Virus record (IMG/VR): IMGVR_UViG_3300036791_000517
Span: 1-61,573 of that record
Reading direction: 5' to 3' (one strand)
Source: a virus
DNA: 61,573 nt
Every line of letters starts with the position of its first letter. The first letter of the stretch is position 1. The notes under the pieces are model-generated. The model saw only the letters and a program-made list of their open reading frames with translations. It searched no databases and was not told the origin of the DNA. Both the position numbers and the translations under genes were made by a program. Below, piece after piece: positions 2,861 through 31,633 of this stretch.

Positions 2861-2875
2861 TTGACATGAAGTCAA
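2861..2875. promoter_or_regulatory. Operator-like palindrome over a start codon
   Basis: TTGACATGAAGTCAA is one mismatch from the TTGACA-N3-TGTCAA consensus found throughout this genome. The ATG at 2866 is its centre. Confidence 0.5.
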
Positions 2876-10255: not shown

Positions 10256-10272
10256 CACGACGGCCCTCCTTG

Positions 10273-11516: not shown

Positions 11517-11963
11517 TCATTCCTTCTCGTTGGGTTGGCGAACACCGATACGAACAAAAGTCGATGCATGAATGCCGGGCGGCGGCTCGCCATCATGCTC
11601 GGCGATGTACTCGAACACGGCGTTGGCGTTAGCCCGCCAGTCGACCATGTCGAAATTTTCGGTGGTCGTGATGAAGGATCGGAAAGCAGCGCCGTCGCGG
11701 ATGACCGCGCTCGGCTTGGTTATCTGGTAGGCGGTGCCACCCGGCGTTGACACGCTGTCAGCCTTAATCTCCTGTAGATGCTGCAGCAGCTTGCCGCCGA
11801 TCTCGTCGAGCAATTTGGTGAACGGTTTCAGTTCAGCTTCGTGCTGTTTTTCGAGAGCGCGTTTGCGATCCCGCAACGCCACGAACTGACTGACTAACCA
11901 ATTGAGATCGAACGACGGTCGGCTCGCCGGATTTGCTCCGGGAGTTGGCATACTACTATCCAT
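11517..11963 (-). CDS. Conserved phage replication-region protein, 148 aa
   Basis: A coiled-coil-like N-terminal helix (about 20-65, RDRKRALEKQHEAELKPF) precedes a small alpha/beta C-terminal domain ending in STFVRIGVRQP. I associate this layout with small proteins beside SSBs in phage recombination operons, without a known activity. It overlaps the start region of the candidate SSB, so the two are probably translated together. AGGAGA precedes ATG 11963. Confidence 0.68.
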   Translation of the reverse strand: MDSSMPTPGANPASRPSFDLNWLVSQFVALRDRKRALEKQHEAELKPFTKLLDEIGGKLLQHLQEIKADSVSTPGGTAYQITKPSAVIRDGAAFRSFITTTENFDMVDWRANANAVFEYIAEHDGEPPPGIHASTFVRIGVRQPNEKE

Positions 11964-11988: not shown

Positions 11989-13539
11989 TTAATCCCATGA
12001 CGCGTCTTCCAGCAAGCTCAAGAAGCTATCCTGCTGCAGGAGACGCTTGGTGAGCAGGTTATAGACCTGCTTCTCGATGGGCGTACTCGACAGATGGGCA
12101 AACAGTTGACGTCTCGCTTGCCCGACCCGGCGAATGCGCGCGTTGCCTTGATCGTATGTTTCGGCGCTGAGGGAAGGCCCGAACCACACGACCGTGTCAG
12201 CCGCCGTGAGGGTCACTCCGTGGCTGATGCACTTCGGGAACGCCACCAATGGTGCACGGTCATCGGTGTTTTGGAAAGCGTTGAATATCCTCGTGCGTTC
12301 TTTCGGCGAAACTGATCCTTGGATCATGTGCGGCATGTGAAGCTGCGCCTCCTTTCCTTTTTTCGCCGCATGTTTCATCAGATATCGATGGACACCATTC
12401 AGTGCATGGAGATAGCTCACAAACACAATGGTCTTGCCTTGCGCCGCGTCGATGATGTCGGCCAGCGCCTGCAAACGAGCGCCGCCGTCCAACTCATGAA
12501 TGTTGTGCTTGCTGTCGTAGAGCCAGCCGGTCGAGACCTGCAACAGCTTCGACATGACGACACCGGCATTGAGCGCCGTCACCTCGCCCTTGTCGACCAT
12601 CGCCATGGCGTATTTACGCAGTTCGTCGTAGATGCGCTTCTGTTCCTTGCCCAAGGCGGTCTCGATAGGGGGTGGCACGTAGGCTTCGGGCAACTCCATG
12701 ATGTCGTCGAGCGTGTAACGCACGGCGGGCTGGAAGTAGTTGAACGCCTTGTCGACGGCACCCGGCTTGTTGACCCACTTCCATTCGTTGAGGCGGTACA
12801 TCAGCTCTTCACGCAAATGGCTGAAATATTTAGGCACGCGATGCGGCGTGATGATCCTGATCTGGTTCCAGATGTCGGTGACGTAATTCGGCATGGGACT
12901 TCCTGTCATGCCCCACACGGTCGTCATGCGCTCAGCCACCTTGGTGGCGATGCGTGTGCGTATGGTGTTGTTGCGATAGACCGCCAGCTCGTCGAGGCAC
13001 AGCACGTCGATGTCGCGGCGCTTCAGCACTTCCTTGTGGATGACTTTCAGGCCGTCATGATTGACGATGTAGATGTCAACCTTGTCATCGGCCAATTTCT
13101 TGTGACGCTGTTCGGCGGTGCCGTAGAGCACCGTCCAGCGCAAGTGTGGTGTCGCTTTCAGCACTTCGGCCGCCCAGGTGAAGGTCATCGTGCTGATCGG
13201 GCAGACGACTAGCATCTTGTGCGCCAGCCCGAGTTTCTTGAGATAGTCGAAGCTCCAGAGAGCGCAACGCGTCTTGCCGGTGCCCATCGAGTTCAGAACA
13301 TAACTCCGGGGATTCTCCGTCATGCTCTCGACGGTGCGGATCTGAATGTCGAACGGCTTGCCGCCGCAGAAGTCGTAAGTCGAACGCAGCGACGAGGGGA
13401 CGTCGATGCCGAGGGACCGCAGCGGGATGGTATAGCGTGGTGTGTGGTCAAGGTGCACGCAGCCGTCCGACGAGGGGGCGTCGGGGAAGAGGGCGCGCAC
13501 CTCGGCGGTGGCTTGGACTTTAAGAGTTCCAACCAACAT
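11989..13539 (-). CDS. SNF2-family DEAD-like helicase, 516 aa
   Basis: Two RecA-like domains are visible. The first has Walker A GTGKT (about 86-90), DELA as motif II (about 183-186) and a TGSPMPN motif III. The second has KTIVFVSYLHAL and the QGNARIRRVGQ motif VI. This is the SNF2/Rad54-like arrangement common in phage replication modules, where the protein translocates on DNA during recombination-dependent replication. ATG 13539 is chosen; a TTG at 13548 is possible. It overlaps the VRR-NUC nuclease gene by 20 bases, suggesting they act together. Confidence 0.85.
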   Translation of the reverse strand: MLVGTLKVQATAEVRALFPDAPSSDGCVHLDHTPRYTIPLRSLGIDVPSSLRSTYDFCGGKPFDIQIRTVESMTENPRSYVLNSMGTGKTRCALWSFDYLKKLGLAHKMLVVCPISTMTFTWAAEVLKATPHLRWTVLYGTAEQRHKKLADDKVDIYIVNHDGLKVIHKEVLKRRDIDVLCLDELAVYRNNTIRTRIATKVAERMTTVWGMTGSPMPNYVTDIWNQIRIITPHRVPKYFSHLREELMYRLNEWKWVNKPGAVDKAFNYFQPAVRYTLDDIMELPEAYVPPPIETALGKEQKRIYDELRKYAMAMVDKGEVTALNAGVVMSKLLQVSTGWLYDSKHNIHELDGGARLQALADIIDAAQGKTIVFVSYLHALNGVHRYLMKHAAKKGKEAQLHMPHMIQGSVSPKERTRIFNAFQNTDDRAPLVAFPKCISHGVTLTAADTVVWFGPSLSAETYDQGNARIRRVGQARRQLFAHLSSTPIEKQVYNLLTKRLLQQDSFLSLLEDASWD

Positions 13540-13852
13540 GACGGTCAACCCAGCGCTTGAAGGCGTTCAACCCTTCGTCGTTGCTGATGATAAACACTGT
13601 GCCGCCGGAGCGCAGGATGTTCCGACAGGTGTTGCGCTGCAGAAGTGTCAGCCATTCGTTGGGTGCCTTGGTCTCGATCGCCACGAACCAGCCGAACAGG
13701 CAGATGGTGTAGTCGAGGACGTTGCGCCTGCCGAAGCCTTTAGGGACGAACATTGAATGGTACAACTCTAGACCCATCGTGTCAAGTTGTTTTGACAATA
13801 TGTCAAGGTAATTAGAAACTTTTCTTTTAACATAATATTCAGGACCATGCAT
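13520..13852 (-). CDS. VRR-NUC family nuclease, 110 aa
   Basis: A stand-alone PD-(D/E)XK nuclease of the VRR-NUC type: Asp47 in RNVLDYTI, Glu60-x-Lys62 in FVAIETKAP and Gln72 in LLQRNTCRNIL, followed by the GGTVFII strand. ATG 13852 (MHGPEYYVKR) is the first in-frame start of the real domain; longer versions run into the frame of a neighbouring gene. In other phages this nuclease sits beside an SNF2 helicase, as here, and may process branched DNA. A perfect TTGACA-N3-TGTCAA palindrome (13792-13806) lies in its coding sequence. Confidence 0.78.
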   Translation of the reverse strand: MHGPEYYVKRKVSNYLDILSKQLDTMGLELYHSMFVPKGFGRRNVLDYTICLFGWFVAIETKAPNEWLTLLQRNTCRNILRSGGTVFIISNDEGLNAFKRWVDRHVGWNS

Positions 13853-15905: not shown

Positions 15906-15934
15906 ATTATGCTCTCTTTTTGACATAATGTCAA
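15906..15934 (-). promoter_or_regulatory. Sigma70-type leftward promoter with operator over its -35 box
   Basis: On the minus strand TTGACA (15934-15929), a 17-base spacer and CATAAT (15911-15906) form a near-consensus promoter. The -35 box is one arm of the perfect palindrome TTGACATAATGTCAA (15920-15934), so a protein bound there would block RNA polymerase. It should drive the genes from 15862 leftward (exonuclease, nuclease, helicase, SSB candidate, primase). Confidence 0.75.
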
Positions 15935-15943: not shown

Positions 15944-16342
15944 TTACGATTTACGCGGTTTCACGTTCTTACTGGCGTAGACCAGCGCGGTCGCCGCCTT
16001 AACGGCGAACATGCAGGCCGTCTCGGCATGGGTGATGGCGACCGCCGAATGACGCGCCGCCTCATCGATTGCATGCCACACCGTGGAGGCTGGAACATCC
16101 TCCGGCATGCCGTCCTGCGGCAGCATCGGTTTCTTTTGGTCGCGCAATTTCTCGCAGGTCGTGATGAACGCGGCCGCCAGCAGATGAAGCTGACCGACTT
16201 GCATAAGCCTATCGGGGTTGAACCCGGCACGTACCTGACGCAGTGCAGTGTCGCTCACATCGACCATCAGATTGACCGTGCGTGACGCGGTCGGATCAGC
16301 GGCTTGCTGTTCCAGTTCTTCTTCCGTCAACATCGTTGGCAT
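15944..16342 (-). CDS. Acb2/Tad1-like small helical protein, 132 aa, possible anti-CBASS sponge
   Basis: The core (about 34-122) reads RQVRAGFNP, then LLAAAFITTCEKL, then AARHSAVAITHAETACMFA and VKAATAL. The last part fits the S-R-E-x-(S/A)-x-A-x-T-x-x-E-x-A-x-M-(W/F)-A-x-K-A helix of Acb2/Tad1-hairpin proteins, some of which sequester the cyclic nucleotide signals of CBASS and Thoeris immunity. Ligand binding here is inference; the wider family is common in phages and mostly uncharacterised. ATG 16342 has AAAGGA 7 bases upstream; ATG 16366 is in frame but lies in the terminator. The gene sits alone between the polymerase terminator and the promoter at 15906. Confidence 0.65.
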   Translation of the reverse strand: MPTMLTEEELEQQAADPTASRTVNLMVDVSDTALRQVRAGFNPDRLMQVGQLHLLAAAFITTCEKLRDQKKPMLPQDGMPEDVPASTVWHAIDEAARHSAVAITHAETACMFAVKAATALVYASKNVKPRKS

Positions 16343-16366
16343 GTCATGTTCCTTTCGTTTCGACAT

Positions 16367-16474: not shown

Positions 16475-18370
16475 TCATTTACAATCGCCATAGCGCTGGC
16501 CCACGCCAACGTCACAGGCTAGCGGCAGGTTGGCCAGCCAGCTGGGTGGCCGGTTCATCTCCAATTCAGCCCAGATTTTCGCCGGTTCTACCTGGCTGAC
16601 AGGCACATGGTAGACCAGCTCGTCGTGCGCCGAATGGACCAGCCGAGCGCCTAAACTTTCCATCGGCACACGCAATCGGACCGCCGCCATCATGACGATA
16701 CAACGCGACAGATGCTGGCAAATCGTCTCCAGCAGAGAAGCGCCATAGGTCTTGCGGGTCTTGCGACCGTCACGGAAGAACCAGCCATTGAGTTCATAGT
16801 TGTAAGTTAGATCGGGGAAATAAATCGGCAACCCGGTCGGGCCGACCATCAGGTTCTTGTAGAACGTCACGCATTTTTTGGTCAACCCCTCGCCCTCGCC
16901 GATTTCCGGCAGGTCGGCCATCATCGACAGGATGCGGTCGAGCTCGCGCCAGGTACCGACAATGCGCTGCATGCGGGCGCGATAGGTGGTGACGGTGTCG
17001 ATCGCTGACTGATCGCTCAACACCACGGGCGTCTCAGTGTTGCGACTGTTCAGCCACACCGTGCGCTGGAATTTAAGCCAACCGCTGGCGTAGCCCAACT
17101 GCAGGATGCCGGTCTTACCGACGAAGCGTTCCGGCTTGTTGTCTTTGGTGATCGGACGACCGAACACCAAACTGGCGAAGGCCGCATAAACATCTTCGCC
17201 GCGCCGGAACTGCTCGACCAATTCCGTCTCGCCGCAGAACTCGGCAGCGACCCGTGCCTCGATCTGCTTGGCGTCAACCACCAGCAGGACGTAGCCGTCG
17301 TCAGCATAGATCGCCTGACGCAACTCCGATTCGCGCCCGAGGTTCTGCACGTTGAGATCCCAACCGCCGCCGAAGCGATGGGTGTGCGCCGCGCCGATGA
17401 TCACCGGCATGGGTAGACGGCAACGACCGTTGGGAAACTCCAGCTCGGCGATCTTGATAAAGCGTCTGCTGCGGGTTTCTTCGATGGTCGATTTGATTTC
17501 GAGCCGCGCCTCGACCACGCTTCGAACGACAAGGTTGGGATGTTCGAGCAGATCGATGAACTCCTGATCGCTCTTGGCGAAGGCGTAGGTCTGCTCCTGG
17601 GTGCGCGGCGAGGTTTTCATCGGCGGCTCGACTGCGAGCCTGCGCAGCACGTCGGCCAGCTTCTGGTTGCTCATCAGATCGCCCTTGGTGACGCCGAGCT
17701 GTTCGACCTGCGCCAGTGCCGCCGCTTTCTCTCTTAACACGGTGTCAAGGTGGCTGTGCAGCAGCACCTCGTCGACCTTGAGCACCGGCTCGGTCGTGCA
17801 GCGCGTGACCATGTCATGCAGCATCAGTTCGTCAGGCGGGACCAGCTGAAGCAGACGACGATAAATCTCGCGGCATAGCCAGGTATCGTGCAGGCAGTAT
17901 TCGACTTCGCGCTGCCACAGGTCACAGGCGATGATGTCGGCACGCGTCATGCCCTTCACTTCCTTGACCAGCGTGCCCTTGGCGGGCAGGCCGAAGTGAG
18001 CGGCGACGTCCTCAAGCCTGTGCGAGGGCAGGAGCGGGCCGAGCATGGTGCGCGACAGGGCGATGGTGTCGACGATGAAATCGGGGATGAAGTCGAAGCG
18101 CCATGCCATCACTGCCATGTCGAACTGAGCGTTGTGGCTGATCATGGCAATCTGCTTGCCCCAGCGTTGCTGGAATTTAAGCGACGCGATGAAGGTGGGG
18201 ATTTCCGGCCCGTCGATCAGCATTGGCGGATCGACAAGGTTAGCCACGCCAAGGCAGATCGCCTCGAAGCGCGGGTCAAGGATATACTCGGCCGGTGAGA
18301 TTTTCTTGAGCGAGTATTCCTGGGTGTAGAACGATTCATAATCGCAGAATAGCGCGATGACTGGGTCCAT
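16475..18370 (-). CDS. Family A DNA polymerase with 3'-5' exonuclease, 631 aa
   Basis: Exonuclease motifs: Asp10-x-Glu12 (FCDYESF), Asn80-x-x-Phe-Asp84 (SHNAQFD) and Tyr158-x-x-x-Asp162. Polymerase motif A is VVDAKQIEAR (Asp366, Glu371), motif B GKTGILQLGYASG (Lys419, Tyr427) and motif C HDE (582-584). All catalytic residues are present, so it should be an active, proofreading replicase. Length is close to T7-type polymerases. ATG 18370 is preferred to the TTG at 18385. It has its own upstream and downstream terminators, so it is separated transcriptionally from its neighbours. A near-match operator palindrome (17734-17748) lies within it. Confidence 0.92.
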   Translation of the reverse strand: MDPVIALFCDYESFYTQEYSLKKISPAEYILDPRFEAICLGVANLVDPPMLIDGPEIPTFIASLKFQQRWGKQIAMISHNAQFDMAVMAWRFDFIPDFIVDTIALSRTMLGPLLPSHRLEDVAAHFGLPAKGTLVKEVKGMTRADIIACDLWQREVEYCLHDTWLCREIYRRLLQLVPPDELMLHDMVTRCTTEPVLKVDEVLLHSHLDTVLREKAAALAQVEQLGVTKGDLMSNQKLADVLRRLAVEPPMKTSPRTQEQTYAFAKSDQEFIDLLEHPNLVVRSVVEARLEIKSTIEETRSRRFIKIAELEFPNGRCRLPMPVIIGAAHTHRFGGGWDLNVQNLGRESELRQAIYADDGYVLLVVDAKQIEARVAAEFCGETELVEQFRRGEDVYAAFASLVFGRPITKDNKPERFVGKTGILQLGYASGWLKFQRTVWLNSRNTETPVVLSDQSAIDTVTTYRARMQRIVGTWRELDRILSMMADLPEIGEGEGLTKKCVTFYKNLMVGPTGLPIYFPDLTYNYELNGWFFRDGRKTRKTYGASLLETICQHLSRCIVMMAAVRLRVPMESLGARLVHSAHDELVYHVPVSQVEPAKIWAELEMNRPPSWLANLPLACDVGVGQRYGDCK

Positions 18371-18430: not shown

Positions 18431-18604
18431 TCAACTGATGTCTTTGAGGTAGCGCAGCAGATCTTCCTTGCAGTCAGTCACTGCTACGCCATTGCCGTAG
18501 CGATCGCTGATGTTAACAGCGACCGATTTTACGTAGGTTTCCCACGCATCGGTGAGCGCTTCGATGCGCTTATAAAGTTCGTTGTACTCTTGTCTGGTTA
18601 ACAT
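18431..18604 (-). CDS. Small protein, 57 aa, start codon inside an operator palindrome
   Basis: ATG 18604 to TGA 18431. The N-terminus is helical (LTRQEYNELYKRIEAL) and the rest is acidic with no recognised domain. The start codon is the centre of TTGACATCATGTTAA, so a protein bound to the palindrome would cover it. No ribosome binding site is obvious. It is followed by a strong terminator. The ORF is below the usual length cutoff but has coding character similar to its neighbours. Confidence 0.55.
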   Translation of the reverse strand: MLTRQEYNELYKRIEALTDAWETYVKSVAVNISDRYGNGVAVTDCKEDLLRYLKDIS

Positions 18605-18612
18605 GATGTCAA
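18598..18612. promoter_or_regulatory. Operator-like palindrome over a start codon
   Basis: TTAACATGATGTCAA (one mismatch to TTGACA-N3-TGTCAA) spans the ATG of the 57-aa gene and lies between it and the upstream gene. Confidence 0.55.
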
Positions 18613-19499: not shown

Positions 19500-19631
19500 T
19501 CATTCCATGCCGATGTTGACCGTCAGCACAGCGCTAACATCATGCTCCATGAACCAGCTGTGTCCGGTCAGTATATGCTTCTCCGGATCGAACACCGGGT
19601 GAGCCAGGGCGAAAATCGCTTGTTTGTGCAT
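19500..19631 (-). CDS. N-terminal half of the same TGA-split protein, 43 aa
   Basis: ATG 19631 is preceded by AGGAG at 8 bases, with a perfect operator palindrome 17 bases upstream. It reads MHKQAIFALAHPVFDPEKH, continues in a similar style and ends in VNIGME before TGA. The reading frame continues, still coding-like, for another 86 codons (see 19239-19466). On its own it would be a peptide with no recognised function. Confidence 0.55.
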   Translation of the reverse strand: MHKQAIFALAHPVFDPEKHILTGHSWFMEHDVSAVLTVNIGME

Positions 19632-19647: not shown

Positions 19648-19662
19648 TTGACATGATGTCAA
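19648..19662. promoter_or_regulatory. Perfect operator palindrome TTGACATGATGTCAA
   Basis: It lies directly upstream of the ribosome binding site of the gene at 19631 and overlaps the stop codon of the 453-aa gene. It matches TTGACA-N3-TGTCAA exactly. Confidence 0.7.
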
Positions 19663-21020
19663 CTTTGCTCGCTGCGTTTGACGACGTAGTCGTGGTGGAC
19701 CCAGCCGAGTGATGGATCACCCCGGACGTGCTCGTGGATCAGTCGCGAGTACGCCATGCACTTACCGCACAGGCGGTAACCTTCCTCGTAGTCGTAGGTC
19801 CAGTCATGCTCGTCGGGCCTGCACCAAGCCTTGGGCAGGTCAGGCATGTAGGTGCGCCAGTGCGAGCGCACCGGGTGAGCCTTGTGCTTGCGTGATGTAT
19901 TGCGCAGGTAACGCTCGATGTACGGCACCGGCTTGGTCTTAGGCAGGCGCAAGGTCACCCGATGATAGTCGAGCGCCTTCACCTTGCCCGTCAGTCCGGT
20001 GCGCACCTGATGCATGGGCTGGACATAGTTGGTCCTGACCGGCACCTCGTTCAGCATGGCCAGCACGGTGACGATCCAGCGCATCATGCCGGTGAACTCG
20101 GTGGTCTCGGTTATAATCAAGTCAGCGATTACATCACCGGCATTGCGTCGATCACCGACGATCGCCGCGATGATCCCGCGCATGCGTCCGGTGCCGAGAG
20201 CGCCATGACGCAGGAGATACTGCGGCAGGCGCAGGCTCTTCATGTCGTCGAGCGTGTCGATCACCGTGCTCTTGCCTTTCTCAGAGTAGCCCCACAGCGA
20301 CGCCGCACCGAGCGTTGCCATCACATGGCTATCGGCACGCTCAGGCAGCATCGGCACGCAGCCTTTATCTCTGCCCTCCGTCATGGTGAAGACATGCTCG
20401 CGGGTCGAGAAGAAATAGCAGATGGTCGTGCCGATCAAACCGTAGTTGCCGTGCGTCTCGCAGATCATCTCGATCACGGCCTCGGTGTCGCTCAGACGCC
20501 GGATCAAACAACCCAGCCGGTTGGCTACATCGTCATATTTGAACTTGCTGTCATCCATGTTGTGGAGGGCGCGCATGGTCCGCACTTTGGTCAGCAAGTC
20601 GAACTCGATCCACGTCGTCTCGTACGGCATGGTGGCGAACTGCACGCGGTAGAGCAGCTTCTCCGGCTTGCAGGTCGAGCTCACCTCGGTGGCGTAGCGC
20701 ACGAACTCGTTGTCGAGCACGAAGCGCTGCGCCTGACGCATGTCATGCCGGTAGGATTGTAGAAGCGGCTCGATCTTTTTCGCATCATGTGCCTTCAGCC
20801 AGAGCCGCTTAGGCAGCGTGTAGGTCGCGGCGACGAACTGGTCGGCCAGTGATGTCTCTTCTCGCAGTGCCTGCTCAGCCATTGCTTGGGCGCGCGGGTT
20901 GCCCGACAGCAACGCCTCGGCGAAATCCATGGCGGGCGACTTGCCGCCAGTCACGCTGGGTATCTCACCCGGCTGCCATTGAATAGTGCCTGACTTGATC
21001 GTCTTTGGTGGTTTAGACAT
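19659..21020 (-). CDS. Conserved phage protein, 453 aa, early gene with strong promoter
   Basis: ATG 21020 has GAGGAGGAAGTC upstream and a perfect-consensus promoter 18-46 bases before it. The protein is mostly helical in the N-terminal third (about 35-130), mixed alpha/beta in the middle (about 130-330, including GNYGLIGTTICYFF), and ends with a CGKC pair near residue 421 that may form half a zinc site. I do not recognise the family. Size, position and the best promoter in the leftward block suggest an important early protein. Confidence 0.78.
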   Translation of the reverse strand: MSKPPKTIKSGTIQWQPGEIPSVTGGKSPAMDFAEALLSGNPRAQAMAEQALREETSLADQFVAATYTLPKRLWLKAHDAKKIEPLLQSYRHDMRQAQRFVLDNEFVRYATEVSSTCKPEKLLYRVQFATMPYETTWIEFDLLTKVRTMRALHNMDDSKFKYDDVANRLGCLIRRLSDTEAVIEMICETHGNYGLIGTTICYFFSTREHVFTMTEGRDKGCVPMLPERADSHVMATLGAASLWGYSEKGKSTVIDTLDDMKSLRLPQYLLRHGALGTGRMRGIIAAIVGDRRNAGDVIADLIITETTEFTGMMRWIVTVLAMLNEVPVRTNYVQPMHQVRTGLTGKVKALDYHRVTLRLPKTKPVPYIERYLRNTSRKHKAHPVRSHWRTYMPDLPKAWCRPDEHDWTYDYEEGYRLCGKCMAYSRLIHEHVRGDPSLGWVHHDYVVKRSEQS

Positions 21021-21037: not shown

Positions 21038-21066
21038 ATTATACTTCCCCCTTGACACCATGTCAA
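21038..21066 (-). promoter_or_regulatory. Perfect-consensus sigma70 promoter with embedded operator
   Basis: On the minus strand TTGACA (21066-21061), exactly 17 bases, then TATAAT (21043-21038): both hexamers match consensus. The -35 box is one arm of the perfect palindrome TTGACACCATGTCAA (21052-21066). It drives the 453-aa gene. Such a strong promoter with a built-in operator is typical of repressed or switch-controlled early transcription. Confidence 0.85.
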
Positions 21067-21080
21067 GAGGGAAGTCTCGG

Positions 21081-21170
21081 TTATTTCTTGCCGAACGTGC
21101 GGACCAACACCACGGCAAAGATCGTACAGCAGATGAGAAACAATGCGATCAGCCAGCACAGGCAGATCAT
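21081..21170 (-). CDS. Membrane peptide, 29 aa
   Basis: ATG 21170 overlaps the TGA of the HTH gene (ATGA). One hydrophobic helix with three cysteines (LCWLIALFLICCTIFAVV) is followed by a short basic tail RTFGKK, which would put the C-terminus in the cytoplasm by the positive-inside rule. Function unknown. Very short, so confidence is limited. Confidence 0.45.
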   Translation of the reverse strand: MICLCWLIALFLICCTIFAVVLVRTFGKK

Positions 21171-21472
21171 TTCTTGCCGTTTCTCATTTTCGCCCACACG
21201 CGCTGATAGCCGATGGCCCGTCCGGCTGCTTCGAGCGTGGCGTTCTGCGGTCGTCGGGTCTTACCCTCGAACCACTGCTTGACGGTACCGGCTGATGGCC
21301 CGCCTTGCTCTTCGACTTCCTTGTAATCGGCACGAGCAAGGTTACGTTTGCCGAAATGGTCCTGCATGATGGTGCGGATCGCGTCTATTGCAGGATCTTT
21401 ATTTACAAAAACGTACGCCTGATAAATTCTCATTGTACCTTTTGGCGTGCGCTCTGTTGGCCGTTTACTCAT
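21167..21472 (-). CDS. Helix-turn-helix DNA-binding protein (Xre-like), 101 aa
   Basis: The C-terminal half reads EEQGGPSAGTVKQWFEGKTR, then RPQ..TLEAAGRAIGY, the usual spacing of an Xre-type helix-turn-helix with recognition helix about 59-72. It probably regulates phage transcription and is one of two candidates to bind the TTGACA-N3-TGTCAA sites. ATG 21472 has GGAGG 5 bases upstream and overlaps the TAA of the HNH gene (TAATG); ATG 21484 lies inside that gene and is less likely. Confidence 0.75.
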   Translation of the reverse strand: MSKRPTERTPKGTMRIYQAYVFVNKDPAIDAIRTIMQDHFGKRNLARADYKEVEEQGGPSAGTVKQWFEGKTRRPQNATLEAAGRAIGYQRVWAKMRNGKK

Positions 21473-22384: not shown

Positions 22385-23014
22385 TCAGCCTCCATAGTTA
22401 GAGAGAAGTTCCTTGTCGAACAACGCAATCGCCAGCTGGGTCGTTTCATCGACCATCCAGCTGAACGTTTTATAAGTTGGTTCGACCCAGTACGGCATGA
22501 GCCTGGCGCCACGCAGGTACTGCTCCATGCCAGGCGCCACATCCTCAAGATGATTGGCATCGAAACCGAGCCACCACAGGCCGTGCGGGCAGTCGTCGTG
22601 GCACAGCGTGTGCACACGAATCCATTCGGACCAGCCGACAAAGGTCGACGTGTCGCCCTTGCGATCCTCGCGCAAGTGCCGGGCCGAGTCGCCTTGCGGC
22701 CACACCAGACTCTCGGTCAGCCACTTCTCGCGGATCAAGCGGTAACGGATCCATTCATCCTCGGCCAACGGATGACAGTAGGCGGCGTAGGTCAGACCGC
22801 CATGCACGGTGACGTCGACCTCTTTGTAATCCTTGCCTGCCAGCGGATGGTTGGGGTTGAGCCCGACATAACCGCACCAGCTACCTATTGGACCACGCCG
22901 GATCGTGCAGCGTGCGCCAGTTGTTTCCTCGACCCAGATCGCCCGGTCGGGTTCGTCATCCCAGGGACCGCTCGGCCAACCCGCGCGGTCAACGATGTTG
23001 TCGAATGTATCCAT
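22385..23014 (-). CDS. Conserved phage protein of unknown function, 209 aa
   Basis: Segments RRGPIGSWCGYVGLNPNHPL, VHGGLTYAAYC and LWWLGFDANHLEDVAPG match a protein I have seen repeatedly in unrelated phages and some bacteria, always without a known activity. The conserved His, Cys and Asp residues could form a metal or catalytic site. ATG 23014 overlaps the TGA of the upstream gene by one base. Confidence 0.8.
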   Translation of the reverse strand: MDTFDNIVDRAGWPSGPWDDEPDRAIWVEETTGARCTIRRGPIGSWCGYVGLNPNHPLAGKDYKEVDVTVHGGLTYAAYCHPLAEDEWIRYRLIREKWLTESLVWPQGDSARHLREDRKGDTSTFVGWSEWIRVHTLCHDDCPHGLWWLGFDANHLEDVAPGMEQYLRGARLMPYWVEPTYKTFSWMVDETTQLAIALFDKELLSNYGG

Positions 23015-23532
23015 CAGTGTTCGGTTGGTTTATCGACCGCCATACGGCCGGTGATGAACGAATCCTTCGCCCTATTGTCGAGGATGTGTGGTGCAGCAAG
23101 CTTGCGGGTCTTGGGATCGATCAGGCAGATCGCCATGATCTGCTCGCTGCCGTGGATAACACTGAACATCACAGCTTCCTTGCGATCGGGATGTTCGGAA
23201 ATGCCTTCCTCTGCAGGACGACCTTTGGTGTAGTCATCGACACTTTTCCGGTCGTCACTTATCAGTGTCCAGATCTCGCTGATAAAAATGACACCAGCAA
23301 CGGCGTCGACATTTCTGGCCAGAGATTTCTGCAGACCGGCGACGACGTCTTTCGATTCGATCGAACCGAAATCAGCAACGCCCACTGGCATGACTTCACC
23401 GCCGTAACCACACACCAGCAGCATTGGCGAATGCTGATCGCCGGAACTGACAATCTTCTGCGCGCCGTCAATCAGCTTAGGCAGCAGCTTGTCCAGCCAT
23501 TTGCGGAAATCAAACCCTATTGGCTCATGCAT
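23014..23532 (-). CDS. Conserved hypothetical protein, 172 aa
   Basis: ATG 23532 has AAGGAG upstream and an operator palindrome 11 bases upstream. An alpha/beta protein with MLLVCGYGGEVMPVGV, GVIFISEIWTL and SEHPDRKEAVMFSV segments; the S-x-H-P-x-R-x-E element looks conserved. Function unknown. It is the first gene after a terminator, so it opens a new leftward unit under operator control. Confidence 0.75.
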   Translation of the reverse strand: MHEPIGFDFRKWLDKLLPKLIDGAQKIVSSGDQHSPMLLVCGYGGEVMPVGVADFGSIESKDVVAGLQKSLARNVDAVAGVIFISEIWTLISDDRKSVDDYTKGRPAEEGISEHPDRKEAVMFSVIHGSEQIMAICLIDPKTRKLAAPHILDNRAKDSFITGRMAVDKPTEH

Positions 23533-23542: not shown

Positions 23543-23557
23543 TTGATATAATGTCAA
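23543..23557. promoter_or_regulatory. Operator palindrome TTGATATAATGTCAA
   Basis: One mismatch to TTGACA-N3-TGTCAA, between a terminator and the ribosome binding site of the gene starting at 23532. Read on the + strand it also contains TGATATAAT. Confidence 0.6.
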
Positions 23558-23599: not shown

Positions 23600-24103
23600 C
23601 TAATCCGCCTCGACTTCCTCGCGGAGTGGCGGCGTCTTCTCGGCCTCAACGATCGCCTTGTTGAGAACCTTCATGCCTGCAATGACCTTGCGCACGCCCT
23701 TGTCCTTGCGGACCTTGCGGTGCTTGGTCATCTGCACGCCACGCTCGATCCAACTGAGCTGGACCAAGCTGCCATCGGGCAGCTTGATGGCATCGGCGGC
23801 ATAGGGACCGTCCGACCATTTCACCAACGTGACCTTGAAGGTCTTGTTGTGCCACGCCAGCAGCTGCTTGCGAGGCACTCGACCGTTGTAGGGCTGGCCG
23901 ATCCAGTCCGTAGGACCGAAAATGTCACCCTTGCGAATGAATTGCAGGTTTTCAACCTGCATCTCGCTGCCCGAGCGGACGCAGCGGATGCTGCCATTCT
24001 CGTCGAGCAGGACAGCGTGGTGCTGATAGTCGCCGCGGGTCAGGACTTCCCCGACCCTAGCCTTTTCGATCTTTTGTCCAATGGACAAGCTATAGAGGCA
24101 CAT
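23600..24103 (-). CDS. Hypothetical protein, 167 aa, paralogue of the protein at 26438
   Basis: It starts MCLYSLSIG and has a central beta-rich domain. It shares KLPDGSLVQLSWIERGVQM with the protein at 26438 (TFPDGQRAHLSWLMAGTRV), and both end in a charged tail after a G-(M/V)-x-K-V segment. Each gene has TTGACATGATGTTAA just upstream of its ribosome binding site (24117-24131 here), so gene and control site were duplicated together. Function unknown. Confidence 0.75.
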   Translation of the reverse strand: MCLYSLSIGQKIEKARVGEVLTRGDYQHHAVLLDENGSIRCVRSGSEMQVENLQFIRKGDIFGPTDWIGQPYNGRVPRKQLLAWHNKTFKVTLVKWSDGPYAADAIKLPDGSLVQLSWIERGVQMTKHRKVRKDKGVRKVIAGMKVLNKAIVEAEKTPPLREEVEAD

Positions 24104-24116: not shown

Positions 24117-24131
24117 TTGACATGATGTTAA
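24117..24131. promoter_or_regulatory. Operator palindrome TTGACATGATGTTAA
   Basis: One mismatch to the consensus, 13 bases upstream of ATG 24103 and touching its AGGAG ribosome binding site. Bases 24132-24233 hold nothing else I can identify. Confidence 0.6.
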
Positions 24132-25781: not shown

Positions 25782-26063
25782 CTAGCGGCATTCCCACTGG
25801 TCCTTGGCCTTGCCCTCGGCCGTGGTTTGCCATTGCATGTTGGTTACGCTGTCGGGCCCGCCCTTGCAGAGCGGGATGATGTGGTCGCGGACATAGCCCG
25901 GGCACGGACCCGTCGACCGGTCGGCCGACGGGCAGGGATGAAGCTGCTGAAACAGCAGCGCGACGTTGCGGTCGCGGGCTTCGACCCACTGGGTCCGGCC
26001 ATCCTCACAGAGGGTGACCGAACACAGCAGGACGATGACGATGGCAATGAGCCAGCGCATCAT
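25782..26063 (-). CDS. Exported HNH-type endonuclease-like protein, 93 aa
   Basis: An N-terminal signal peptide (MMRWLIAIVIVLLCSVTLC) precedes a compact His-Me finger domain: PCPGYVRDHIIPLCKGGPDS, then NMQWQT..EAKAKD-type sequence (NMQWQTTAEGKAKDQWE). This family of small secreted HNH proteins occurs in phages and proteobacteria. Four cysteines may form disulfides. Export suggests action on DNA outside the cytoplasm, perhaps against incoming competitor DNA; that is inference. Starts at 26063 or 26060; both ATGs overlap the upstream TGA. Confidence 0.75.
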   Translation of the reverse strand: MMRWLIAIVIVLLCSVTLCEDGRTQWVEARDRNVALLFQQLHPCPSADRSTGPCPGYVRDHIIPLCKGGPDSVTNMQWQTTAEGKAKDQWECR

Positions 26064-26257
26064 TTGAGATCAGTTTGTTGGAGCGCGAACTCGACCATCT
26101 GGCGGACGGTCGCGTCGAATGATCTGATCTCCTGACGCAACCCGACGATCTGCCGCACAAGCTCGATCATGATGCGATCGGTGATGTCGGGCTCGGTCAG
26201 TTGATCGTGAGTGTCAAGCTTGTCGATGCGTTTGAGTTCGTTGTCCAAGTCAGCCAT
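26060..26257 (-). CDS. Helical protein, 65 aa, probable coiled coil
   Basis: ATG 26257 has AGGAG upstream and an operator palindrome 22 bases upstream. Heptad-like pattern in IMIELVRQIVGLRQEIRSFD and ATVRQMVEFALQQ. Its stop overlaps the start of the exported HNH gene, so the two are co-translated. A possible partner or regulator of that protein; function unknown. Confidence 0.65.
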   Translation of the reverse strand: MADLDNELKRIDKLDTHDQLTEPDITDRIMIELVRQIVGLRQEIRSFDATVRQMVEFALQQTDLK

Positions 26258-26278: not shown

Positions 26279-26293
26279 TTGACATAATGTCAG
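26279..26293. promoter_or_regulatory. Operator palindrome TTGACATAATGTCAG
   Basis: One mismatch to TTGACA-N3-TGTCAA, upstream of the 26257 gene. Bases 26294-26437 hold two GC-rich inverted repeats (around 26369-26388 and 26398-26424) and no gene that I can support. Confidence 0.55.
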
Positions 26294-26437: not shown

Positions 26438-26968
26438 TTAGACGATCACGAGACGACGGCGTGCCGTCTCGGGCTGTGACGTGCCCGGCTGCGGCTCCTC
26501 GACCGGCTCCGGAGGTGTCGGGGCCGGTTCCTTGACCGGCTCGGGCACCGGCATCGGCGTCGGCTCGGTGGCGATGCCTTCCTCGATTGCCATCGCGACC
26601 TTGTTCATGCCCGGCAGACCGGTGATCACCGGCATGCCGAGACGGACACGAGTGCCTGCCATGAGCCACGACAGGTGGGCACGCTGGCCATCAGGGAAGG
26701 TGATCACCTCGTGATGGAGGCGAACCTTGAGGTTGGTCGCTCCGTTCCAGCGCTGGACCAGAGGGCCGCTGCGCACCCAGCGATGGTCGACCGTCACCTT
26801 GTCGATGACGATCTCCACCTGCGGTCGACGGATGCAGACCAAGCGGTCGTCGACCGACGGATCGGCCGGGTAGAGCCCCTTGAGCGAGTAGTTGGGGATC
26901 TGCCTGACGACCAGATCCTCGTGCGCGGTTGCCAGTCGATGGGCAACATAGATTGAACCTTCACACAT
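26438..26968 (-). CDS. Hypothetical protein, 176 aa, paralogue of the protein at 23600
   Basis: ATG 26968 has AGAGG upstream, just after an operator palindrome (26981-26995). The beta-rich core shares the FPDG..-LSW..G segment with the 23600 protein. It adds a Pro/Glu-rich tail (PTPMPVPEPVKEPAPTPPEP) and ends in a basic RRRLVIV. Function unknown. The two paralogues share both their start (Met-Cys) and their upstream control site. Confidence 0.75.
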   Translation of the reverse strand: MCEGSIYVAHRLATAHEDLVVRQIPNYSLKGLYPADPSVDDRLVCIRRPQVEIVIDKVTVDHRWVRSGPLVQRWNGATNLKVRLHHEVITFPDGQRAHLSWLMAGTRVRLGMPVITGLPGMNKVAMAIEEGIATEPTPMPVPEPVKEPAPTPPEPVEEPQPGTSQPETARRRLVIV

Positions 26969-26980: not shown

Positions 26981-26995
26981 TTGACATGATGTTAA
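26981..26995. promoter_or_regulatory. Operator palindrome TTGACATGATGTTAA
   Basis: Same 15-mer as at 24117 and 28817, 12 bases upstream of ATG 26968. Bases 27000-27107 hold inverted repeats (for example 27079-27104) but no gene. Confidence 0.6.
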
Positions 26996-27107: not shown

Positions 27108-27935
27108 TCACGCTACCTCGTCGACCGGATCGTCTTTGGTCGGCACGGACGTGGTGATTTTAGGTTTCTTACTTGACTTGGCCTTGGTGGTGTCCGGCTT
27201 GGCTGCTTTCAGTTTCTTCTTGCCTTTGGGCGGCTGCGGCTGCGCCCGCATCTTGGTGGTGCCGCCCAAGGTGGCGACGCGCTGTTCTAGAAGCTCGCAG
27301 GCCTCGTAGACGTCGTGGTAGTTGTGACCCTCGTTGAACTTGATCAGCAGGGCCCGCAAGCTCCACAGCCGGTTGGCCAGCGTCTCGTCCGACTGCTTGC
27401 GTTTGTGCGGCTCCTTGCCCTGCATAGCGCGCTTGATCTGGGGCTCGCTCAGTTCTTTGGTCGGGGCGTCGTTCTGGGCCCGGGCGAATGCCAGATAAAG
27501 CTCCCACGCCCGGCCCTTGATCTTGCCGTCGGCACGCCAGCCCTTCATATGCTCGCGCGCCGTGTTGAGCATGGCCGGGCCGTCGATCGCCGGGTTGCGG
27601 CCGAGCACGATGAAGTGCTTGAGCTCGCTGGCGCGCTGCTTGAACTGCTGGGTGTTGCCGTAGTCCTCGTCGCCATAGTCGCCCATCTCCTCGCCCGAGC
27701 CGCCCGAGATCTCGCCCCACGCCCGGGTATTGTCGGCCGGTTCGAGCAAGCCCTCCTTGGCTTTCTGGCAAACATACTCGGCCGCCTTCATGCGCGCCGT
27801 CTTGCCCTTGCCCTCGGTGCGGCCAAGCTCGCGCAGATGGGCAAAGATGGCATCGCGTTCGGGATTGGTGTTTGATCCAGGCGTCGGCTGGTCGGTGGTG
27901 CTGTTTGACACGATGTCAACTTTAGGTTCGCTCAT
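27108..27935 (-). CDS. Hypothetical charged protein, 275 aa
   Basis: An acidic/polar N-terminus (1-70), a Gly-Asp-rich loop (GEEMGDYGDEDYG), a helical core (about 95-225) and a Lys/Pro-rich C-terminal tail (about 230-275) that is likely disordered and could bind nucleic acid. A perfect palindrome TTGACACGATGTCAA (27905-27919) encodes residues 6-10 (VDIVS), just inside the start. Function unknown. Confidence 0.72.
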   Translation of the reverse strand: MSEPKVDIVSNSTTDQPTPGSNTNPERDAIFAHLRELGRTEGKGKTARMKAAEYVCQKAKEGLLEPADNTRAWGEISGGSGEEMGDYGDEDYGNTQQFKQRASELKHFIVLGRNPAIDGPAMLNTAREHMKGWRADGKIKGRAWELYLAFARAQNDAPTKELSEPQIKRAMQGKEPHKRKQSDETLANRLWSLRALLIKFNEGHNYHDVYEACELLEQRVATLGGTTKMRAQPQPPKGKKKLKAAKPDTTKAKSSKKPKITTSVPTKDDPVDEVA

Positions 27936-28048: not shown

Positions 28049-28249
28049 TCATCTCCTCATGCCTATACCCATGTTGCGGGCGTTGCGGTCGGCACGGCGT
28101 GCCGCGCTTGACACGCTGTCCAGCTCACGGTGCAGCCATACGATCTCGTCGATCAGCAGCAGCACCGTGCGCCTGAGGTTCTCGGTGGTCGGGCCATCCT
28201 TCTCGATGATGCGCACCATCGATTGGAGCGGTCGGATATCGCGTGGCAT
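28049..28249 (-). CDS. Hypothetical helical protein, 66 aa
   Basis: ATG 28249 overlaps the TGA of the upstream gene by one base. Helical (QSMVRIIEKDGPTTENLRRT, VLLLIDEIVWLHRELD) with a basic C-terminus. Last gene of the four-gene unit that begins with the ribbon-helix-helix gene. A hairpin with an ACCCCGCAC stem (about 28014-28043) lies just downstream. Confidence 0.66.
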   Translation of the reverse strand: MPRDIRPLQSMVRIIEKDGPTTENLRRTVLLLIDEIVWLHRELDSVSSAARRADRNARNMGIGMRR

Positions 28250-28461
28250 CAGTGCACCTCCGTGTCGTCGACCTCACCCTTGAGCCGCCAACGAATGCGC
28301 AGGCGTTCGTCGATCGGCGCGTCGAACAGGCTGACCAGCGCCGCCTCGATGGTCGGCTGCACCATCCCGGCAAGGCTGTTGCCGGGCCGGATGACGTTGG
28401 TGATGTCGTGCGCGTCCAACGGCGTCTCGAAACAGACGCCGATCACCAGGTGCATCTTCAT
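28249..28461 (-). CDS. Hypothetical protein, 70 aa
   Basis: ATG 28461 overlaps the TGA of the ribbon-helix-helix gene (ATGA). An alpha/beta protein: MHLVIGVCFETPL, then PTIEAALVSLFDAPIDERL and IRWRLKGEV. No family recognised. Coupled to the regulator gene before it and the helical gene after it. Confidence 0.66.
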   Translation of the reverse strand: MKMHLVIGVCFETPLDAHDITNVIRPGNSLAGMVQPTIEAALVSLFDAPIDERLRIRWRLKGEVDDTEVH

Positions 28462-28823
28462 GCGTCACCTTCGACCTTGCCGTTGGCCAGCGGCAGACGG
28501 TGAGCATCGCGCAGCCGCTGCACGTCGGGGTCGATCCTTCGGCTGGGCTCAGGACAGGTGATCTTGATGCGGGCTAGCGGCTGGTTGGTTACAACGAGCT
28601 GCTCACGCTTGCGGTAACGCTCGTGCAAGGCACGCTCGCGGCGCTTGCGCTCGCGCGCATCGGCAAAGGCCGCCGCTTCGAGGATGGAGCGCACCTCGAC
28701 CAGATCGTCGTGCGCCGCACGATGCAGGGCACGGCCAACCCACCATGACAGGGGGATGCCGCGCAGTTCGGCCGCGCGCACCATTGATGGGCTGACGGTT
28801 ACTCGTATGTTCTTTCTTGACAT
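28458..28823 (-). CDS. Ribbon-helix-helix (Arc/CopG-like) protein, 121 aa, candidate phage repressor
   Basis: The N-terminal 40 residues fit a ribbon-helix-helix fold: strand NIRVTVS (about 5-11), helix PSMVRAAELRG (12-22), turn, helix LSWWVGRALHRAAHDD (25-40). RHH dimers read short palindromes. A basic helix (ADARERKRRERALHERYRKR) and a Pro-rich tail follow. The real start is ATG 28823 (MSRKNIRV), which lies inside the operator palindrome TTGACATGATGTTAA at 28817-28831; longer versions read through that site. This arrangement predicts autoregulation and makes it the first candidate to bind the dispersed TTGACA-N3-TGTCAA sites. Confidence 0.7.
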   Translation of the reverse strand: MSRKNIRVTVSPSMVRAAELRGIPLSWWVGRALHRAAHDDLVEVRSILEAAAFADARERKRRERALHERYRKREQLVVTNQPLARIKITCPEPSRRIDPDVQRLRDAHRLPLANGKVEGDA

Positions 28824-28831
28824 GATGTTAA
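28817..28831. promoter_or_regulatory. Operator palindrome over the ribbon-helix-helix start codon
   Basis: TTGACATGATGTTAA covers ATG 28823-28821. If the product binds this site it would shut off its own expression. Confidence 0.65.
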
Positions 28832-28837
28832 TCCTTT

Positions 28838-28993
28838 CTATTGACAGGCAGTGGGCTGGCCGTACTTGCCGGGGCTGCCCCGGCATAGATCGGCATCGTC
28901 AGCGATGGTGCCGCCGGGAGTGCTAAAAGCCAACCACATAAGAGCAGCCGTGATGATTGCTGCCCAGATCGTCCAACGGATTTCCTCGGCCAT
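28838..28993 (-). CDS. Membrane-anchored small protein, 51 aa
   Basis: ATG 28993 overlaps the upstream TGA (TGATG). One N-terminal transmembrane helix (IRWTIWAAIITAALMWLAF) leads to a short exported domain with two cysteines. Function unknown. Confidence 0.58.
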   Translation of the reverse strand: MAEEIRWTIWAAIITAALMWLAFSTPGGTIADDADLCRGSPGKYGQPTACQ

Positions 28994-29199
28994 CACAGCA
29001 CCCGCACGACAACACCGTCCTTGACCTCGCAGCGGGCATACCACTTGTGGGGCGACGGATAGTGCGGACCCTCGACGTAGATGGTGCCATCGCTTGGTGT
29101 CGTGCCAATACCGGCCGGTTGATAGTAGGTCACCCGCTCGCCAGCCTTGACGGCAACGACGAGATCCTTCTTCGATTTGAAATCACGCGTGGTGTACAT
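28993..29199 (-). CDS. Hypothetical small beta protein, 68 aa
   Basis: ATG 29199 has CAGGAGA upstream; the 81-residue version starts before the operator and is less likely. Mostly beta: DLVVAVKAGERVTYYQ, GTIYVEGPHYPSPHKWYARC and DGVVVRVL. This DGTIY..GPHYP.PHKWYA layout suggests a small barrel. Function unknown. Confidence 0.67.
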   Translation of the reverse strand: MYTTRDFKSKKDLVVAVKAGERVTYYQPAGIGTTPSDGTIYVEGPHYPSPHKWYARCEVKDGVVVRVL

Positions 29200-29223: not shown

Positions 29224-29238
29224 TTGATATGATGTCAA
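29224..29238. promoter_or_regulatory. Operator palindrome TTGATATGATGTCAA
   Basis: One mismatch to consensus, 25 bases upstream of ATG 29199, overlapping the stop codon of the upstream gene. Confidence 0.58.
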
Positions 29239-29447
29239 CGTGCCGTTGTGTTGCCCCTGTTGAGCGTGCTGGTCGGACTGAGCTTCAGCTTGAGCTTGGC
29301 GAGCTCGCCGTCGATGCGGTCGACCGCCTCGGCAAGATTGAGCAGACCATCCTGCCAGGCGGCAACGTGCATCCTGATGTCGGCCATGATCGACAGTGTG
29401 GATGACGCGGCAGGTTTGTGCTTGGTGGTGTCTGATGGGTTTTTCAT
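29235..29447 (-). CDS. Hypothetical helical protein, 70 aa
   Basis: ATG 29447 has AAGGAG 8 bases upstream. A Lys/Thr-rich N-terminus precedes a long amphipathic helix (ADIRMHVAAWQDGLLNLAEA, VDRIDGELAKLKLK). Function unknown. An operator palindrome lies 64 bases upstream. Confidence 0.64.
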   Translation of the reverse strand: MKNPSDTTKHKPAASSTLSIMADIRMHVAAWQDGLLNLAEAVDRIDGELAKLKLKLSPTSTLNRGNTTAR

Positions 29448-29510: not shown

Positions 29511-29525
29511 CTGACATAATGTCAA
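29511..29525. promoter_or_regulatory. Operator palindrome CTGACATAATGTCAA
   Basis: One mismatch to consensus. On the minus strand TTGACA could serve as a -35 box (17 bases to a weak TAAGCT). The AACTCCCGGGGTT palindrome lies 13 bases away at 29539-29551. Bases 29552-29687 hold no gene I can support. Confidence 0.58.
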
Positions 29526-30400: not shown

Positions 30401-30433
30401 TTGACACGATGTCAAGTCGTAACCCCTGGGGTT
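30401..30433. promoter_or_regulatory. Adjacent copies of both palindrome families
   Basis: A perfect TTGACACGATGTCAA (30401-30415) is followed after 5 bases by a perfect AACCCCTGGGGTT (30421-30433). No start codon is nearby, so neither serves a ribosome binding site. This is the cleanest pairing of the two motifs. Bases 30434-30542 hold nothing else recognisable. Confidence 0.62.
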
Positions 30434-30648: not shown

Positions 30649-31392
30649 CTAGTTAGTCGGCTGGGTTGGCGTGCCGTTGCTCGCGGCGAGCTTCGCCTTC
30701 AACAACGCGATTTCATCGGCGCGTGACAGTCCGGTGGATGCGGCCGACACATCGCACGACTCCTTCAACGCCTTGACCGCATCTTGCACGGCCATCAATG
30801 CTAGCCGCTGGCGCGGGTTCGCATTGGCCTGGGCCATCGCGAGCGGGTCGTTCTTCTCGATCCGCTTGTCACTGACAACGCCTTCCCAACGCGTGGCCAG
30901 CGACTTGAGCGGGTTGTCGTCGGTCTTTGGCGTGGGCGTCAGGATGGCAGCCCATTCCTCCGCTGTCGGCTCCTTCTCTTTGTGCTCTTCCATTAGCTTG
31001 CGCAGTTTGGCGCCGCGCGAGTTGAACGGCCCTTTCGTCTTCTCGATCACGTCATCCGCGTATTGCGTCATATCGTAGGCCTTCCAGAAGCCCGCCTCAA
31101 TGAACGCGCCGAACCCGGAAATCCATGACTTGATCGATGATTCGGCCAGCGGATCGCGATGGCCGTTTGATGCGTCACGAAACGCAGTGTTGAACGCAGT
31201 GAAAAGTTTCGCGCCATCCGGCATGGCGTTCGCCTTCGCCTCCTTCGCCCGAAACCCGCACGCATAGCTGAATGTGGCGAAACGCGTGAAGACCGCCACA
31301 TCCGTGAGATTGCCGCTGCCGATTTCCATGGCCATTTTGACCATATCGGCTTCAGTCTTCAACGCCTTCGCAGTGTAGTTGCTGATATCCAT
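30649..31392 (-). CDS. Hypothetical protein, 247 aa, beside the origin-like island
   Basis: ATG 31392 has AAGGAG upstream and a perfect operator palindrome 23 bases upstream. Largely helical (ALKTEADMVKMAMEIGSG, SSIKSWISGFGAFIEAGFW, MAVQDAVKALKESCD), with a charged middle (about 120-150). No family recognised. It has its own operator and tandem terminators, so it is expressed as a single unit. Its place next to the iterons makes a replication-initiator role worth testing; there is no motif evidence for it. Confidence 0.72.
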   Translation of the reverse strand: MDISNYTAKALKTEADMVKMAMEIGSGNLTDVAVFTRFATFSYACGFRAKEAKANAMPDGAKLFTAFNTAFRDASNGHRDPLAESSIKSWISGFGAFIEAGFWKAYDMTQYADDVIEKTKGPFNSRGAKLRKLMEEHKEKEPTAEEWAAILTPTPKTDDNPLKSLATRWEGVVSDKRIEKNDPLAMAQANANPRQRLALMAVQDAVKALKESCDVSAASTGLSRADEIALLKAKLAASNGTPTQPTN

Positions 31393-31414: not shown

Positions 31415-31429
31415 TTGACATCGTGTCAA
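31415..31429. promoter_or_regulatory. Perfect operator palindrome TTGACATCGTGTCAA
   Basis: It lies 23 bases upstream of ATG 31392. AGGGAAGCTTTCCCT, a second inverted repeat (31432-31446), follows within 3 bases. Confidence 0.68.
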
Positions 31430-31489: not shown

Positions 31490-31504
31490 TTGACACGATG
31501 TCAA
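31490..31504. promoter_or_regulatory. Perfect operator palindrome TTGACACGATGTCAA
   Basis: Identical to the copies at 30401 and 27905. It lies in the 280-base region between divergent genes (31393-31672), 115 bases upstream of the rightward promoter at 31605. Confidence 0.66.
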
Positions 31505-31604: not shown

Positions 31605-31633
31605 TTGACAAACCCCCGAGGTTAAGCTATATT
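31605..31633 (+). promoter_or_regulatory. Strong rightward sigma70 promoter
   Basis: TTGACA (31605-31610), 17-base spacer, TATATT (31628-31633). The spacer contains AACCCCCGAGGTT (31611-31623), a member of the second palindrome family, so a protein bound there would sit between the promoter boxes. It drives the gene at 31673. Confidence 0.8.

Follow-up and report, generated by a model that had tools for sequence, protein, structure and literature searches.

A palindrome overlapping a putative phage promoter is one of many dispersed, lineage-specific dyads that may be sites of a phage-encoded regulator

Results

A palindrome on the −35 hexamer of a putative promoter

The DNA analyzed here (the window) is a viral stretch of 61,573 bases whose two ends have 127 bases in common, an overlap that we take to reflect a circular assembly. 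On its minus strand, positions 21066–21038 read TTGACATGGTGTCAAGGGGGAAGTATAAT, comprising a perfect −35 hexamer, a 17-bp spacer and a perfect −10 hexamer and matching the sigma70-type pattern (TTGACA, 16–18 bp, TATAAT). The ATG of a 453-aa open reading frame (ORF) is located at 21020, 17 bases past the −10 hexamer, with a Shine–Dalgarno (SD)-like GAGGAGG 5 bases ahead of it (Table 1). Given this ATG position, a transcript starting near 21031 would have a leader of about 11 nt. The ORF product has a weak match to AAA_29, below the cut-off. An earlier note on this DNA had described a perfect TTGACA-N17-TATAAT on the minus strand with its −35 hexamer as one arm of a perfect palindrome; both statements were confirmed, as TTGACA is the left arm of TTGACATGGTGTCAA. 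Beyond its arms, this palindrome pairs at 8 of 9 outer positions, the best extension among the 29 related sites described below.

The pair TTGACA and TATAAT separated by 15–19 bp occurs twice in the window and in none of 100 shuffles; with a spacing of 16–18 bp, it was seen once in 200 shuffled genomes. The second window copy, at 7752–7722, has a 19-bp spacer and lies within an ORF encoding a DUF927 domain. As the palindrome itself supplies TTGACA, the −35 match is no independent evidence for a promoter. A sigma70-type promoter at 21038–21066 is plausible from the sequence. No such promoter was seen upstream of the orthologs of the 453-aa gene in two related viral records, G002 and G003. In G002, an 11/12 version (TTGACA-N17-TATCAT) is embedded in a dyad that follows closely downstream of the local copy of the helix-turn-helix (HTH) gene, and the TATCAT overlaps a start codon. 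Promoter-like sequences matching at 11/12 positions were also observed in the divergent gaps of the window (31605–31633, plus strand) and of Rhizobium phage RHph_TM3_14A (locus L020, 17577, minus strand), in both cases with a dyad 121–122 bp upstream.

Table 1 Coordinates of the dyads, the putative promoter and selected genes in the window. Dyad refers to TTGACA-N3-TGTCAA.
Feature	Position	Strand	Remark
Dyad, one mismatch	2861–2875		at start of ORF 2866–3012
Dyad, exact	7738–7752		inside DUF927 ORF; minus strand also TTGACA-N19-TATAAT
Dyad, exact	9004–9018		inside DUF927 ORF
Dyad, one mismatch	11747–11761		in ORF
Dyad, exact	13792–13806		in ORF 13520–13852
Dyad, exact	15920–15934		intergenic; minus strand TTGACA-N17-CATAAT
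Dyad, one mismatch	17734–17748		in DNA polymerase ORF
Dyad, one mismatch	18598–18612		at start of ORF 18431–18604
Dyad, exact	19648–19662		16 bp before ORF 19500–19631
453-aa ORF	19659–21020	−	downstream of putative promoter; no confident family
Putative sigma70-type promoter, TTGACA-N17-TATAAT	21038–21066	−	−35 is left arm of dyad
Extended palindrome around dyad 21052–21066	21043–21075		15-bp arms, one mismatch
Dyad, exact (palindrome of the earlier note)	21052–21066		perfect 6-N3-6
XRE/Cro-like HTH protein	21167–21472	−	own sequence reading; candidate local regulator
Dyad, one mismatch	23543–23557		10 bp before ORF 23014–23532
Dyad, one mismatch	24117–24131		13 bp before ORF 23600–24103
Dyad, one mismatch	26279–26293		21 bp before ORF 26060–26257
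Dyad, one mismatch	26981–26995		12 bp before ORF 26438–26968
275-aa all-alpha early protein	27108–27935	−	no known family; best candidate dyad binder
Dyad, exact	27905–27919		in first codons of candidate binder gene
Dyad, one mismatch	28108–28122		in ORF
Dyad, one mismatch	28817–28831		32 bp before ORF 28458–28784
Dyad, one mismatch	29224–29238		24 bp before ORF 28993–29199
Dyad, one mismatch	29511–29525		63 bp before ORF 29235–29447
Dyad, exact	30401–30415		intergenic
Dyad, exact	31415–31429		22 bp before ORF 30649–31392
Dyad, exact	31490–31504		in divergent early/late gap
Dyad, one mismatch	37704–37718		29 bp before ORF 37748–38017
Dyad, one mismatch	40168–40182		28 bp before ORF 40211–42082
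Dyad, one mismatch	46245–46259		at start of ORF 46250–46534
Dyad, one mismatch	47806–47820		in late ORF
Dyad, exact	50035–50049		in late ORF
Dyad, one mismatch	54334–54348		no ORF called
Dyad, exact	59110–59124		no ORF called at its centre by own caller

Copies of the dyad across the window

With at most one mismatch, TTGACA-N3-TGTCAA occurs at 29 sites in the window, 12 of which are exact, compared to means of 0.15 and 0.05, respectively, in 20 shuffled genomes. The leftward early region contains the majority, which are often located directly ahead of the SD and start of minus-strand genes. By our own simple caller, with which gene starts are approximate, 17 of the 29 dyads fall between genes, compared to 12% expected at random, and for 17 a start lies no more than 80 bp away, compared to 14%.

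Coincidence with a promoter is rare. The dyad provides the −35 of an 11–12/12 promoter with 16–18-bp spacing at two of the 29 sites (21052 and 15920), and at one more site (7738), within an ORF, the spacer to a perfect −10 is 19 bp; the promoter is therefore an exceptional placement of a general element. Matches of at least 5/6 to the −10 hexamer accompany 5 of the 29 window sites (0.24 expected), at least two of these matches overlapping an ATG, and 1 of the 30 dyads of G002. Across the dyad-bearing phages, 7 of 37 promoters at the 11–12/12 level were located within 60 bp of a dyad (2.2 expected), with the half-site itself serving as the −35 in three of the seven. The view that the dyads serve mainly as promoters was rejected, as few have a −10 at the right spacing. 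That the palindrome is a protein-binding operator is well supported on sequence grounds. The operator role proposed in the earlier note is thus strengthened by the 29 copies, their closeness to gene starts and the family-wide counterparts described below, whereas its picture of a restraint on a single strong promoter is too narrow for an element that forms a promoter −35 so seldom.

Lineage-specific dyads in related phages

The window DNA polymerase has 41% identity to that of RHph_TM3_14A; for the polymerase of Pseudomonas phage KPP25, the value is about 30%. The nearest cultured relatives grow on Rhizobium; the literature returned nothing on RHph_TM3_14A by name. A polymerase alignment detected 121 related stretches in viral contigs, and 80 of them were kept. 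Dyads were examined in 55 genomes or loci, consisting of the window, 46 full viral records, the complete Rhizobium phage, two partial Pseudomonas phages (KPP25 over 50,000 of 64,113 bases and Rollin over 49,282 of 61,282) and five loci of ~20 kb. Dispersed inverted repeats far above the level of shuffles were present around the polymerase genes of most relatives and in most whole records, at about 5 to 60 copies and with a sequence that differs by lineage; for 6-bp arms, the shuffle maxima were 1–3.

The window dyad is common to G002 (30 dyads) and L033/L070. G001, with a polymerase identity of 62%, carries TTAACA-N3-TGTTAA (13 exact), and G004 and G005 carry TCACGCCC-N-GGGCGTGA (18 exact) and TTACGCCC-N-GGGCGTAA (9), respectively. 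The dyads of G003 and G006 are TCCTCGTACGAGGA and TCCCCGTACGGGGA, and those of G048 and its sister G050 contain CACTAC. GTTACC or TTACC dyads with N3–N6 centers occur in the Rhizobium phage and in many others, with up to 60 sites at one mismatch; RHph_TM3_14A itself has 15, of the form TTAC-N8-GTAA. The half-sites GGTAAC, AGTAAC, GGGCGTAA, TGTTAA and TGTCAA align as variants of one theme and, read outward from the center, look like drifted versions of GGTAAC.

Weaker dyads were found in G022, G010, G045, G015 and a Bradyrhizobium locus, all five of which carry the candidate protein described below, each with 6–10 copies of TTACC-N5/6-GGTAA compared to about 0 in shuffles. No dyads, including TTACC-N5/6-GGTAA sites, were found in seven phages, namely G025, G028, G034, G039, G049 and the partial KPP25 and Rollin. 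In the polymerase tree, G025, G028, G034 and G039 are nested in dyad clades.

Placement of the dyads

Placement was counted in 35 phages with a usable motif, giving 1,047 sites at the set cut-off. By our own gene calls, 455 of these are intergenic, compared to a 9% background, and ~57% are not. The center lies within 60 bp of a start at 414 sites (9.5% background), and 149 of these are centered 10–14 nt ahead of the start. In 40 phages, sites were denser near early markers (0.52 per kb) than near late ones (0.28 per kb). When orthologs were paired between phages with different dyads, start dyads coincided in 461 pairs compared to 328 after permutation, and 0 of 200 permutations reached as high a count. 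Kept positions with a changed sequence are the mark that a regulator altering its site while keeping its targets would leave.

A candidate binding protein

Of 27 gene families, that of the early protein encoded at 27108–27935 (EVB41_028 in RHph_TM3_14A) has the strongest dyad association. Its members occur in 31 of the 32 near-complete phages with dyads and in none of the seven without, a count in which G034 is taken as dyad-less (its top score being G+C noise), the weak-dyad phages are taken as dyad-bearing, which their TTACC-N5/6-GGTAA sites support, and 16 partial or short records are left out. Among the records left out, G003 (weak homolog), G006, G016, G026, G038, G044 and G050 are without the protein by the search used, G031 has a fragment, and the protein is present in G012, G018, G042, G041, G043, G047, G008 and the Bradyrhizobium locus. 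All four dyad-less phages nested in dyad clades are without the family. An earlier contingency at a fixed cut-off, with G003 and G031 half-labelled, gave 34 records with candidate and dyad, 4 with the candidate only, 9 with the dyad only and 6 with neither.

No other family has a dyad at its start in all three of the window, G001 and G002. Overall, 11 of 38 candidate genes have a dyad at their own start, a weak excess over the 14.5% of all genes. The barely detectable homolog in G003 lies beside two exact dyads. The G029 candidate was missed by the profile search and found by BLAST clustering (25% identity over 191 aa); it falls outside the profile–profile test, which omitted large families. 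G048 and G050 have dyads, yet no homolog of the protein was detectable in either, which counts against the candidate. A second family, of 73–79-aa proteins (L020 28317–28538), was likewise limited to dyad phages, with members in 25 of 32 compared to 0 of 7 dyad-less ones, and is missing from the window.

No family in PHROG, Pfam or PDB-sequence searches covers the 27108–27935 protein, which gave scattered weak matches only. It has a pI of 9.3, and its AlphaFold model is of good confidence (pLDDT 83.7, pTM 0.66) and all helical with a low-confidence basic tail. Fold searches returned weak, mixed PDB matches, none at E ≤ 0.001, which is no evidence of a new fold, and two clear viral matches, one uncharacterized and one nameless. 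Neither profile nor fold searches recovered a recognized DNA-binding domain or fold relative. From its distribution, we lean slightly toward this protein being the dyad binder.

Alternative explanations

Our main reading, to which we assign a probability of about 50%, is that the dyads are the genome-wide sites of a phage-encoded dimeric regulator. Five other explanations were weighed. The XRE-type HTH protein could be a CI/Cro-like repressor that has the dyads as its operators and also controls the 21038 promoter. Its gene adjoins that promoter, and its homolog in G002 is 76% identical; that record shares the window dyad and has, shortly downstream of the gene, a promoter-like sequence carried by a dyad. 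Relatives of the protein were found in G002 and eight further loci. However, when 50 larger viral records and 12 others were searched, strong matches were limited to 6 and 2, respectively (weak matches in 3 and 1 more), although most records have dyads, and the protein was not found in G001 or RHph_TM3_14A with their 13 exact and 15 dyads. Counting the weak matches, the family is present in 9 and 3 records of the two sets, and most of the records without it have dyads; the HTH protein was rejected as too rare to be the general binder, and this explanation is unlikely. A viral-contig scan with the XRE-HTH protein alone found nothing. The protein could be a second, local regulator.

A second possibility is that the DUF927-domain protein (7262–10258) is the binder, with the dyads serving replication or another DNA transaction. 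When protein distance was compared to dyad similarity with core genes controlled, this protein had the best partial correlation (−0.41; 0 of 300 permutations), and the 27108–27935 candidate was second (−0.33; permutation 0.013). DUF927 also ranked first with either distance measure, the candidate being second with tree distances and ninth with bit-score distances. In scans along the proteins, which were too noisy to trust, single polymerase and terminase windows reached about −0.5, so that the covariation test does not identify the binder. All 32 near-complete dyad phages have DUF927, but so do 6 of the 7 dyad-less phages, and placement at gene starts is not predicted by replication; we regard its role as binder as improbable. 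The RHph_TM3_14A homolog of the window protein, which is encoded on the minus strand, is annotated as 'putative integrase' (L020 42239–45322), with no support from Pfam for the window copy.

The dyads might instead act as RNA hairpins at ribosome-binding sites, in translational control or mRNA processing. Many are at or on the SD, the right arm of the Rhizobium phage dyad (GAGGTAAC) is itself SD-like and the 21052–21066 site folds to −26.7 kcal/mol as RNA (z −3.7). However, arms are often only 5–6 bp, many dyads lie within genes and the mismatches of one-mismatch start-associated sites, read in the mRNA sense, run in the opposite direction, with 50 G-U compared to 80 A-C and 140 other. As G-U is not favored, the dyad looks like a DNA site. 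RNA hairpins were set aside as quite improbable, and the sites are very probably bound as DNA by a dimer.

Binding by CtrA (TTAA-N7-TTAA) or another host regulator would suit a family whose nearest cultured members infect Rhizobium, and TTAACA-N3-TGTTAA of G001 has that form. Among the dyads found, only G001 fits, as the window has TTGA-N7-TCAA and RHph_TM3_14A has TTAC-N8-GTAA. CtrA sites are moreover concentrated in particular regions in the available text of PMC9437464, whereas the dyads are dispersed, and a host regulator is very improbable. An ordinary strong promoter with a local operator, nothing more, would account for the perfect promoter and perfect palindrome at 21038–21066 but is refuted as a complete account by 28 further dyad copies and the family-wide pattern, and is scarcely credible.

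Discussion

Under the preferred reading of a phage-encoded regulator, a dimer would bind dyads near start codons, mostly of early genes, and block RNA polymerase; repression is the somewhat likelier mode compared to activation. Where a dyad overlaps a promoter, as at 21038–21066, it would be a classical operator, and its position on the −35 would allow either the dyad regulator or the adjacent HTH protein to switch off the promoter of the 453-aa gene. Elsewhere, a bound dyad would act as a stoperator-like roadblock to elongation. The 27108–27935 protein may be autoregulatory, acting at the dyad within the first codons of its gene. The site sequence would drift together with the regulator in each lineage, and each phage would therefore silence only its own kind.

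The regulator could act either in the lytic cycle, by turning off early genes, or in silencing a prophage. The scanned window proteins included no integrase, and the window holds no evidence of lysogeny. In a Bradyrhizobium sp. 139 draft (L113; contig C111), parts of a relative are split between two contigs, one with its early genes and the other with those for terminase and tape measure; among 19 matches, none was to an integrase on either contig.

Dispersed repressor sites in phage genomes are best known from actinobacterial phages. In the available portion of PMC6550527, the stoperators of cluster A mycobacteriophages (L5, Bxb1) are 20–30 short genome-wide sites, only some of them at promoters, that are served by the Rep repressor; they are 13–14 bp long, lack dyad symmetry, point in the direction of transcription and bind a monomer. 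Compared with that account, the present system would be alike in a motif that drifts between relatives with the repressor and in a site at the repressor gene itself, and is alike in having dispersed copies (29 in the window) that are mostly off promoters (2/29 at 11–12/12 promoters). In contrast, the window sites are symmetric dyads, the candidate has no profile match to a known family and the nearest cultured relatives grow on Rhizobium.

Cluster O mycobacteriophages (Corndog) are described in the available part of PMC4351075 as having a 17-bp dyad, TGTTCGG-N3-CCGAACA, in more than 30 copies, many intergenic and denser in one arm, for which a dimeric binder was proposed. Both systems have about 30 or more dispersed inverted repeats (29 in the window and 30 in G002), and the window dyad has the same N3 center. 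None of the dyads found here is TGTTCGG-N3-CCGAACA. In that same text, one sequence is common to five phages and the sites are not closely linked to starts, whereas the dyads here differ by lineage, are strongly associated with starts and co-occur with a candidate binder.

The start-associated sequences of cluster K are a repeated short element just upstream of starts with a proposed role in translation initiation (PMC3203893). Repeated short elements ahead of starts also occur here, strongly enriched at starts but with only 414 of 1,047 sites so placed; no dyad is described in the available part of that report, whereas the elements here are dyads and ~60% are not start-associated. In alphaproteobacterial phages, the excerpted text of PMC9437464 reports repeated TTAA-N7-TTAA sites for the host-encoded CtrA in particular regions; the window half-sites are TTGA/TCAA, and the spacing in G001 fits. 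By these analogies, we read the dyads as a stoperator-like network that is a member of neither the cluster A nor the cluster O type.

More tentatively, a large lineage of ~60-kb phages with cultured members on Rhizobium may use a new all-alpha DNA-binding protein to police its genome through ~5–60 symmetric stoperator sites, with sites and protein drifting jointly and fast (62% polymerase identity already corresponding to different sites), as an independent counterpart of the mycobacteriophage stoperators. If so, this separate lineage, with its symmetric sites, dozens of natural specificity variants and one co-occurring protein, would lend itself directly to studies of joint change in a DNA-binding protein and its dozens of sites, and would open a way into gene control in a phage group that is common but unstudied.

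Three further features of the window were observed. Gene calls are poor at 54232–59756, between ORFs 53029–54231 and 59757–61304, in a genome that is otherwise densely coding. Tandem repeats of 18/15 bp occupy 51908–52107 within ORF 50303–53026. A 140-aa protein encoded at 15944–16366 (minus strand) matches the Pfam Acb2/Tad1 hairpin domain above the cut-off (E = 6e-7), a domain found in anti-defense sponge proteins.
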